This document shows, in pieces, positions 27,174 through 37,321 of a stretch of DNA of 46,497 nt. The position numbers and the translations under genes are program-made. Every line of letters begins with the position of its first letter. Position 1 is the stretch's first letter. The DNA lies in the NCBI GenBank assembly GCA_035691305.1, contig DASSJF010000070.1:1-46497 (forward strand). The letters run 5' to 3'. The DNA comes from a bacterium (lineage in GTDB: Bacteria; Sysuimicrobiota; Sysuimicrobiia; Sysuimicrobiales; Segetimicrobiaceae). The notes under the pieces are model-generated. The model had not been told where the DNA came from, did not search any database, and worked only from the letters and a program-made list of their open reading frames with translations.

Positions 27174-28343
27174 ATGAAAGGACTCCAGTTCGCCGCCGAG
27201 TGGTCGCCGAGGCCCGACTATCGCGTGTCCGAATTCGAAGAACGCACCGGTAAGGCCGTGACCGGCTCCAGCGTCTGGCGGCACCCCCAACTGGGTCTCG
27301 TCGACGTCGTCGAACCGAGGCTGGGCCCCTGGGACGTGCGGCTGCGGCCGCGCGCGTGCGGCGTCTGCGGCTCCGACGTGCACTTCCTCGAGACCGACAA
27401 GGACGGCTACATCCTCTACCCCGGCCTGACGAAGTTTCCGGTCGTGATCGGTCATGAGTTCAGCGGCCAGGTCGTCGAGACCGGCGCCGAGGTGAAGGAC
27501 CTCCGCGCCGGCGACCTCGTCACGGTCGAGGAGATGATCTGGTGCGGCCACTGCGTTCCATGCCGCAACGGCTGGCCGAACCAGTGCGAAAACCTCGAGG
27601 AGATCGGCTTCACGATCAACGGCGCGATGGCGGACCAGCTTGTCGTCGGCGCCAAGTACTGCTGGCCGCTCACCGCGCTCGCGGAGGCGTACGGCGGAGA
27701 AGACGCGGCCGCGGAAGCCGGGGCGATGTGCGAGCCGACGAGCGTGGCCTACAACGGCATGTTCGTGCGCGGCGAGGGGTTCAAGCCGGGCGGCGTCGTC
27801 GCCGTATTCGGCACGGGGCCGATCGGGTTTGCCGCGATCGCGCTCGCGCGCGCGGCGGGGGCGAGCCGGGTTATCGCGTTTGAAGTGAGCCCGACGCGCC
27901 AGGCCCTCGCGCGGAAGGTCGGGGCCGACGAGGTACACAGTCCCGTGGACCTTGATGCGGCCGGCTCGAGCCCGCACGAGGCCATTCTCGCGGCCAGCGG
28001 CGGCCGCGGCGCCGACATGATGGTGGAGGCCGCGGGGGCGCCGACGCGGACGGTGCCGGAGATGGAGCAGGCGCTCGCGATCGGCGGGCGGATCGTCATC
28101 ATCGGCCGGGCGGCGGAGCGCGCGCCCATGTACCTCGAGCACCTGCAGACCCACGCTTCGCAGGTCTTCGGGGCGCAGGGCCACTCCGGCTACGGGACCT
28201 TCCAGAACGTGATCCGCTTGATGGCCTCCGGCCGCATCGATCTGCGGCCGATCATCACGAGCCGGTTTCCGCTCGCCGAGGCGCGCGATGCGGTGCTGCG
28301 AGCCAGCAAGCGCCAGGACGGCAAAGTGATGGTCCGGATCTGA
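27174..28343 (+). CDS. Zinc alcohol dehydrogenase family, likely scyllo-inosose 3-dehydrogenase (IolM-type)
   Basis: A 389-residue medium-chain dehydrogenase. The catalytic zinc site CGVCGSDVHF and the GHE motif (VVIGHEFSGQVVE) are present; the structural-zinc lobe is reduced (EEMIWCGHCVPCRNGWPNQC). The Rossmann loop is VFGTGPIGFAAIALA. The N-terminal WSPRPDYRVSEFEERTGKA, the phrase LYPGLTKFPVVIGHEF and NLEEIGFTINGAMADQ closely resemble the Thermotoga inositol-pathway dehydrogenase. That enzyme oxidises scyllo-inosose to the diketo-inositol. The start is ATG 27174 with a GGAAGG site, just after rnpB. IolN- and IolO-like genes lie 6-8 kb downstream on the same strand, supporting this assignment. 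Confidence 0.82.
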   Translation: MKGLQFAAEWSPRPDYRVSEFEERTGKAVTGSSVWRHPQLGLVDVVEPRLGPWDVRLRPRACGVCGSDVHFLETDKDGYILYPGLTKFPVVIGHEFSGQVVETGAEVKDLRAGDLVTVEEMIWCGHCVPCRNGWPNQCENLEEIGFTINGAMADQLVVGAKYCWPLTALAEAYGGEDAAAEAGAMCEPTSVAYNGMFVRGEGFKPGGVVAVFGTGPIGFAAIALARAAGASRVIAFEVSPTRQALARKVGADEVHSPVDLDAAGSSPHEAILAASGGRGADMMVEAAGAPTRTVPEMEQALAIGGRIVIIGRAAERAPMYLEHLQTHASQVFGAQGHSGYGTFQNVIRLMASGRIDLRPIITSRFPLAEARDAVLRASKRQDGKVMVRI

Positions 28344-29161
28344 GGCCCTACCGGCTGCTCGTAACCGACGTCGACGGCACGCTCGTTCCGGAGAACAAGA
28401 TCGTGCCGGCGGGCGTGATCGAGGCGATCCATCGGGCGCAGGACCGGGGCGTCAAAGTCTGCCTCGCCACCGGGCGCCCTTGGCAGGCGACGGAGCCCTT
28501 TGTGGAGGCGGTGCGCGCCGACACACCGGTCATACTCTACAACGGCGGGCTGATCTACGATTTTGCGCACAACCGCGTGCTCTCGCGCACGGCGGTGCCG
28601 CAGGCGACGGCCCGGGCGGTGCTGCCGGTACTGCGCCGGTTTTCCAATACCTCGCCGCTGCTGTTTCTCCACGGCGAGGTCTACGCGGAGCGGATCACGC
28701 CGCTCACGAGGCTGTACGAACATCGGGACCGGCCGCTCGTGATTCTCGAGATAGACAGCTTCCAGCGCCTGCTCGACGAGTCGCCGGACGAGGATCCGCT
28801 CAAGATGCTGGTCATCGGCGAGCCGCCGGACCTCAAAGCGCTCGACGAAGCGCTCGGTACCCTGCCCGTGCCGGTCAACCGCGTATTCTCCCAGAAGGAC
28901 TATCTCGAGATTCTGCCGCAGGGCAACAACAAGGGGCGCGCGCTGCCGGTGCTGGCCCAGGCGGCCGGTGTGACGCTCGCCGAGACCGTCGCAGTCGGCG
29001 ACGCGCACAACGATCTCGCGATGATCCAGGCCGCCGGGCTCGGCGTCGCGGTGGAGACGAGCCCGCCGGACGTCGTCGCCGCGGCCGCGTGGACGTGCCC
29101 GCCGCCGGAGCAGGAAGGCCTGCGCGTCGTGATCGACCGGCTGCTCTTCAACGAAGGGTAG
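28340..29161 (+). CDS. Cof-type HAD hydrolase with apparent CTG start
   Basis: A HAD phosphatase of the Cof/IIB class (273 residues as drawn). Motif I, LLVTDVDGTLVPENK, lies upstream of the first conventional start (GTG 28403), so the gene must begin earlier. The frame contains no ATG, GTG or TTG there. CTG 28340 overlaps the dehydrogenase stop as CTGA and puts motif I at residues 6-20. Motif II is LATGRPWQATE, and the conserved lysine and motif IV appear as NKGRALPVLAQ and VGDAHNDLAMIQAAG. The substrate, probably a sugar phosphate or nucleotide, is not predictable. Confidence 0.86.
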   Translation: MRPYRLLVTDVDGTLVPENKIVPAGVIEAIHRAQDRGVKVCLATGRPWQATEPFVEAVRADTPVILYNGGLIYDFAHNRVLSRTAVPQATARAVLPVLRRFSNTSPLLFLHGEVYAERITPLTRLYEHRDRPLVILEIDSFQRLLDESPDEDPLKMLVIGEPPDLKALDEALGTLPVPVNRVFSQKDYLEILPQGNNKGRALPVLAQAAGVTLAETVAVGDAHNDLAMIQAAGLGVAVETSPPDVVAAAAWTCPPPEQEGLRVVIDRLLFNEG

Positions 29162-36328: not shown

Positions 36329-37321
36329 ATGGCCACGCCACGAATCTACGTGACCCGGTTGCTGCCGGGTCCGGGCCAGGAGTTGCTGCGTCGCGCGCAG
36401 GTCGAGGTGCGGAGCTGGGACCGTGAAGACGTTCCGGTGCCCCGCGACGCACTGCTGCGCGAGGTCGTCGACGCCGACGGGATCGTGTGCTGCCTGACGG
36501 AGAAGATGGACGCGGAAGTCTTCGATCGGATGACGCGGTGCCGCGTCGTCTCGCAGATCGCCGTCGGATTCGACAACATCGACGTCGCGGCCGCGACGCG
36601 CAAGGGCATTCTTGTCACGAACACCCCGGGGGTGTTGACCGAGACGACCGCCGACATGGGGTGGGCACTGCTCATGGCGGCCGCGCGGCGCGTCGCGGAG
36701 GGCGACAAGTTTACGCGGTCGGGGCAGTGGAAGACCTGGGAGATCATGGGGTTCACAGGCCAGGACGTGCACGGGGCGACGCTGGGGATCGTGGGCATGG
36801 GCCGGATCGGGCAGACGGTCGCGCGGCGGGCGATGGGGTTCGACATGCCGATACTGTACAGCGACGTGCGCCGGGCGCCCGAGTCGCAGGAGCGCGCGCT
36901 TGGCGCCCATCATGTCCCGCTCGACGACCTGCTGCGCGAGGCGGACTTCGTCGTCATCACGGCAGCCCTGACCCCGGAGACCCGTCACCTGATCGGCGAG
37001 CGGGAACTGGGGCTGATGAAGCCGACCGCGATTCTCGTCAACATCGCCCGCGGTCCGATCGTCGACCAGCGGGCCTTGTATCGCGCGCTGGTCGACAGGA
37101 AGATCTGGGGGGCCGGGATCGACGTCTTCGAGGTCGAGCCGGTGCCGGCGGACGAGCCGCTCTTGAAGCTCGACAACGTGGTGATGCCGCCCCACCTCGC
37201 CAGCGCCAGCGTCGCCACCCGGCTCAAGATGGTGACGCTCGCGGTCGAGAGCTGTCTCGCCGCTCTGCGCGGCGACGTGCCGGCGAACACCGTGAACCGC
37301 GAGGCGCTCGACCGGAGCTGA
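36329..37321 (+). CDS. D-2-hydroxyacid dehydrogenase, copy 1 (GyaR/GhrB type)
   Basis: A 330-residue NAD(P)-dependent dehydrogenase that interconverts 2-keto acids and D-2-hydroxy acids, such as glyoxylate, hydroxypyruvate or 2-ketogluconate. Visible elements are SQIAVGFDNIDVAAATRKG, TLGIVGMGRIGQTVARRAM (NAD loop), the arginine in VNIARGPIVDQRAL, the glutamate in VFEVEPVPADEP and the histidine in MPPHLASAS, completing the Arg-Glu-His triad. GGAGGAG precedes ATG 36329. It is followed by a close paralogue sharing the stop/start TGATG. Its place after the inositol genes suggests a sugar-acid substrate. Confidence 0.9.
   Translation: MATPRIYVTRLLPGPGQELLRRAQVEVRSWDREDVPVPRDALLREVVDADGIVCCLTEKMDAEVFDRMTRCRVVSQIAVGFDNIDVAAATRKGILVTNTPGVLTETTADMGWALLMAAARRVAEGDKFTRSGQWKTWEIMGFTGQDVHGATLGIVGMGRIGQTVARRAMGFDMPILYSDVRRAPESQERALGAHHVPLDDLLREADFVVITAALTPETRHLIGERELGLMKPTAILVNIARGPIVDQRALYRALVDRKIWGAGIDVFEVEPVPADEPLLKLDNVVMPPHLASASVATRLKMVTLAVESCLAALRGDVPANTVNREALDRS

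Follow-up and report, generated by a model that had tools for sequence, protein, structure and literature searches.

The locus lies in the window, a stretch of 46,497 nucleotides that makes up the whole of contig C70. The draft genome, G000, has 3,578,218 bases in 87 contigs and a completeness of 96.33. The genome belongs to the phylum CSP1-3 (Sysuimicrobiota), which is described as never cultivated (PMC11604079). Two genes of one strand meet there in four bases, CTGA:

27174-28343 (+): iolM-type scyllo-inosose 3-dehydrogenase gene, ATG at 27174, stop TGA at 28341-28343 (NF041097)
28340-28343 (+): CTGA junction, CTG 28340-28342 of the HAD frame over TGA 28341-28343, the iolM stop (direct reading)
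28340-29161 (+): Cof-type HAD hydrolase gene with CTG 28340 as its putative start (TIGR00099, PF08282, dN/dS)
28355-28357 (+): second in-frame CTG, an alternative start (list of NTG codons in frame)
28367-28384 (+): HAD motif I, DVDGTL (translation; Pfam match from profile position 1)
28403-28405 (+): GTG, the earliest ATG, GTG or TTG of the HAD frame (ORF list, codon list)

The upstream protein scores 543.5 bits against NF041097 (cut-off 450), with residues 1-388 on positions 1-388 of a profile of 389, and its nearest named matches come from metagenome genomes at 78-82% identity. The downstream protein scores 159.4 bits against TIGR00099 (cut-off 137), and its PF08282 match begins at profile position 1. 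It resembles the Cof-type HAD-IIB phosphatases (TIGR00099; PDB 3niw, YidA 1rkq) in its full-length match and in having motif I near the N-terminus; beside them the protein looks ordinary and its start codon is the sole oddity. Searching a collection of genome contigs gave 44 loci with an IolM alignment and no relative with the HAD protein, and a collection of viral contigs gave one weak match.

The first-pass annotation had read the junction as a CTG overlapping the dehydrogenase stop, with motif I upstream of every ATG, GTG or TTG of the frame, and both readings hold. The HAD frame has no stop from 27956 to 29161, and the only NTG codons between 27956 and 28405 are CTG 28340, CTG 28355 and GTG 28403. 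Translation from CTG 28340 would give a product beginning (M)RPYRLLVTDVDGTLVPENK and containing the DxDGT motif I, which a start at GTG 28403 would lose. With the query numbered from the codon that follows CTG, its residue 3 or 4 pairs with chain residue 5 or 6 of the two best solved relatives, so that a start at CTG 28340 would yield a normal N-terminus. The earlier description of this CTG as the only sensible start was right in that no ATG, GTG or TTG precedes motif I, but it overlooked CTG 28355. That codon is in frame and ahead of motif I, and its use would give M-LVTDVDGTL; that product would lack most of the strand preceding motif I, and G002, a congener, has CTC in place of this codon. 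The HAD frame also holds no ATA, ATT or ATC from 28250 to motif I. We consider it unlikely that translation begins at CTG 28355 or some other non-standard codon nearby.

In its geometry the junction is a variant of a well-known type and not a new kind of system. The -4 overlap has been given as ATGA or GTGA (PMC10666635) and as NTGA (PMC12548453); here, too, the genes run on one strand and share two bases (NTG over TGA), and the arrangement is conserved between species, with CTGA in G000 and in both its congeners, G001 and G002. What departs from the type is the start codon, which is CTG where ATG, GTG or TTG would be expected.

We compared the HAD start across the family (12 genomes) and the order (43 genomes). 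A HAD match is present in 12 of 12 and 36 of 43 genomes, respectively, and the start region could be read in 31 genes (32 rows, two of which are one gene); five of the matched genomes (G014-G017 and G027) yielded none. In 19 of these 31 genes the distance from an ATG or GTG to motif I is 8 codons; from CTG 28340 it is 9. Only the genes of G000 and G002 lack any ATG, GTG or TTG in codons -40 to -3, the sole such codon ahead of motif I in G002 being a GTG 2 codons before it. The CTGA behind iolM is kept in both congeners (L002 in G001, L003 in G002), so the CTG start withstands the test named in the first-pass annotation, under which ATG or GTG at this site in relatives would have refuted it. 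In G001 the CTGA is kept, but with extra codons and an in-frame ATG 11 codons after the CTG, which means that the CTG is not needed there. It should be noted that retention of CTGA at this junction is explained in part by iolM itself, through its final Ile codon and its TGA stop. By their coordinates, iolM and the HAD gene are not adjacent in other genera, so that among the 12 genomes the junction is limited to the genus of the window. In G005, G011, G008, G003 and G004 some 1 to 4 kb separate the two genes on a common contig; in G010 the distance is about 27 kb.

Three other explanations of the junction can be weighed on these data. A base-calling or assembly error at 28340 might be suspected in draft genomes of many contigs; it is hardly credible when the same CTGA is read between iolM and HAD in three separate genomes, and when amidase and AEC transporter genes, described below, also show CTGA in all three. 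The HAD gene might instead be decaying after loss of its start, as two of the three congeners are without a standard one. We think this very unlikely: the frame is open, dN/dS values of 0.24 (G000-G001), 0.18 (G000-G002) and 0.16 (G001-G002) indicate purifying selection and speak against decay, and PolX and the amidase, among others, show a like pattern. The third explanation, a -1 frameshift at the end of iolM yielding an IolM-HAD fusion protein, had been named in the first-pass annotation as a possible refutation. The HAD frame does lie -1 relative to iolM, and its 128 codons ahead of the CTG are open. By eye there is no slippery run before the TGA, HAD in other genera has an ATG or GTG start of its own and follows unrelated genes, and the other CTGA genes also start separately in relatives; fusion thus finds no support and appears quite remote.

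To see how unusual such junctions are, we surveyed 1,105,328 bases of G000 (61 stretches including the window, 31% of the genome) with our own simple codon-usage gene finder, and applied the identical count to samples of 0.8 Mb of G010, from another genus, and 0.4 Mb of G001, from the same genus. A gene was called start-less when codons -20 to +12 around its coding onset held no ATG, GTG or TTG. A C before a TGA stop is in itself ordinary (120 of the 387 TGA stops in the same-strand pairs that were sampled). Tight junctions of the G000 sample with a codon one base ahead of TGA comprise 47 ATGA, 74 GTGA, 7 TTGA and 30 CTGA; in the window itself the ATGA, GTGA and TTGA junctions mentioned in the first-pass annotation are present. 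Of the 30 CTGA junctions 6 have a start-less gene, and of the 215 other tight junctions 5 do (P = 0.0006, one-sided Fisher test); the control consists of 117 junctions in the third register, 7 NTAA, 29 NTAG and 62 in frame. An ATG sharing one base with TGA belongs to the register of NTGA and not to the third register of this control. CTGATG junctions, as at 37318 in the window, were not counted as CTG starts, since ATG follows immediately.

Orthologs of the five start-less CTGA genes besides HAD were read across the family. An AtzE-like amidase has CTGA, with no ATG, GTG or TTG in codons -25 to +10, in all three congeners, and its six close orthologs from other genera (L123-L128, 64-68% identity) all have ATGA or GTGA at the same column; five more distant loci (L129-L133) start 1 or 2 codons earlier. 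For G006 (L127) the junction is the same one, the gene ahead of the amidase having a similar C-terminus that likewise ends in Arg. Here the N of NTGA changed and the overlap stayed. An AEC transporter gene, found in 6 of 12 genomes, has CTGA in all three congeners (G001 also has a GTG 9 codons on), and the three non-congeners carry GTG, GTG and TTG at the CTG column. PolX has CTGA in two of the three congeners, G000 and G001, and an ATG one codon on in G002, while all nine other genomes have GTG at or adjoining the column. A SpoIIIAA-like ATPase gene (L072:13133, minus strand) was dropped, a GTG 10 codons on being common to the three congeners. A CLP1-like gene (L085:14933, minus strand) is ambiguous, with GTG at +10 in G000 and G001 and at +11 in G006 (L280). 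In G002 the CLP1-like gene (L279, on contig C61) has no ATG, GTG or TTG near its start, and between the CTG of its CTGA and a conserved Trp the distance is 4 codons, the CTG coming first.

After this check the count, HAD included, is 4 of 30 CTGA against 5 of 215 (P = 0.015), or 5 of 30 with the ambiguous CLP1-like gene (P = 0.003). In the G010 sample none of 19 CTGA junctions is start-less (control 7 of 116), nor is any of the 13 in the G001 sample (control 3 of 87). The AEC gene of G001 lies within the latter and was passed over by the count owing to its GTG 9 codons on. On this comparison of a few genes the CTGA habit is only tentatively a trait of the genus, and its strength there is likewise tentative. 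A survey of genes in general found no overall excess in G000: those without ATG, GTG or TTG in codons -25 to +10 of the onset number 47 of 831 there, against 27 of 526 for G010 and 17 of 316 for G001. Many of these rows look like errors of onset estimation, which makes the survey uninformative on CTG outside overlaps.

One of the five start-less control cases was also compared across relatives. At G000:C37 (L084:10066-10069) one gene ends on the TAG of a GTAG sequence, and the gene behind it has no ATG, GTG or TTG in codons -25 to +10. The GTA sits in a column that holds ATG in 8 of 8 genomes of other genera (L292-L299). GTAG recurs in G001 (L290) behind a like upstream C-terminus, so the junction is without an NTG codon in two species; G002 has a GTG two codons on. 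The gene could also start at the following GTC instead of the GTA. Other odd starts were noticed in genes whose type was judged by eye. NUDIX-like genes of G000 (L087, minus strand, 1606) and G010 (L164, plus strand, 8400) have no ATG, GTG or TTG near the onset. A permease-like gene (L107:5371-5500, G000:C41) has none before its first hydrophobic stretch and shows an in-frame ATC 6 bases behind GGAG.

If CTG 28340 is used, ordinary 30S initiation guided by a Shine-Dalgarno sequence might suffice, the overlap being incidental or merely letting the upstream ribosome unfold the site. Pairing was predicted against an assumed 16S tail. With this assumed tail the mean is -6.2 at ATGA and -4.6 at GTGA junctions, and the G000 amidase (-6.6), AEC (-5.3) and PolX (-5.2) sites fall within that range, as 30S initiation would have it; over the congeners, pairing with the same assumed tail is fair at the amidase and PolX CTGs and at two of the three AEC CTGs. 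The HAD CTGs of G000 and G002 reach only -3.5 on the assumed tail, which is weak. Against 30S initiation also stand the GTAG case, without any NTG, and the weakness of CTG as a start in the systems tested (PMC11497404, PMC4633059). We regard this explanation as possible but doubtful.

We also looked for a changed initiator tRNA. The full initiator tRNA gene of G000 (L209) is identical in G001, G002 and G005, the last from another genus, so no decoding change is seen there; the initiator-tRNA arm pattern matches in 9 of the 12 family genomes, and G000, G001 and G002 each show a single IF3_C match above the cut-off. A second arm match in G000 (L201, C43:24701-24713 and around) covers only the 3' part of that tRNA, joined to an unrelated 5' part, and resembles the attachment site that an integrated element would have.

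The reading we favour, at a rough probability of 0.55, is that the CTG starts are real and conserved and that coupled reinitiation probably serves them. The common feature of the CTG sites is the overlapping stop, which favours a restart by the just-terminated ribosome, as for ATGA and GTGA. A ribosome ending iolM at TGA 28341-28343 would remain on the mRNA, move back one base and initiate HAD at the overlapping CTG with initiator tRNA, that is, by termination-reinitiation at a 4-nt overlap. The overlap would compensate for the poor pairing of CUG and so may rescue the CTG, and the same process may operate at several operon junctions of the genus where relatives carry ATGA or GTGA. The sequences establish the junction itself, the lack of other starts, the conservation and the orthologous junctions with a different N; from them we infer translation from CTG, its occurrence by reinitiation and the enabling role of the stop.

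The first-pass annotation had further suggested that the site is set by reinitiation at the stop and not by the start codon itself, and this is plausible. The over-representation of start-less genes at CTGA overlaps counts for it, as do the amidase, where N changed and the overlap was kept, and the GTAG junction, lacking NTG in two species. Shine-Dalgarno-like sequences at the G000 amidase, AEC and PolX genes, and the fact that CTG is still an NTG, call for caution. The observation is now stronger than the window alone could show: congeners keep the CTG, and unrelated genes show the pattern again. A wider claim can be put forward tentatively: that in this genus an overlapping stop relaxes the start-codon rule, with just-terminated ribosomes restarting at whichever triplet spans it. 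CTG, and once GTA (in GTAG), would then serve as conserved starts with the ordinary initiator tRNA.

Termination-reinitiation has been described for ATGA and GTGA (PMC6728339; PMC10666635; PMC12548453), and PMC6728339 contains no occurrence of CTGA, CTG or CUG. The junctions studied here share with these systems the 4-nt geometry, the register and the co-directed genes, and the amidase has ATGA or GTGA in relatives; they differ in that N is C, and their coupling is putative. CUG is said not to be common as a bacterial start (PMC11497404), and a paucity of CTG starts is described in mycobacteria (PMC4633059). As in such rare cases, CTG here replaces ATG, GTG or TTG, but these CTG starts are conserved between species and placed on stop codons. 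A literature search over titles and abstract openings found no report of CTG starts at stop overlaps.

If the stop and not the codon marks the restart site, the identity of the start codon would be relaxed within operons. Gene finders limited to ATG, GTG and TTG would then put the starts of such proteins in the wrong place or truncate them, which here would cost the catalytic motif. Orthologous junctions alike in all but the N of NTGA form a natural series on how far restart needs a good start codon, and such a series bears on the undecided 30S and 70S models of coupling.
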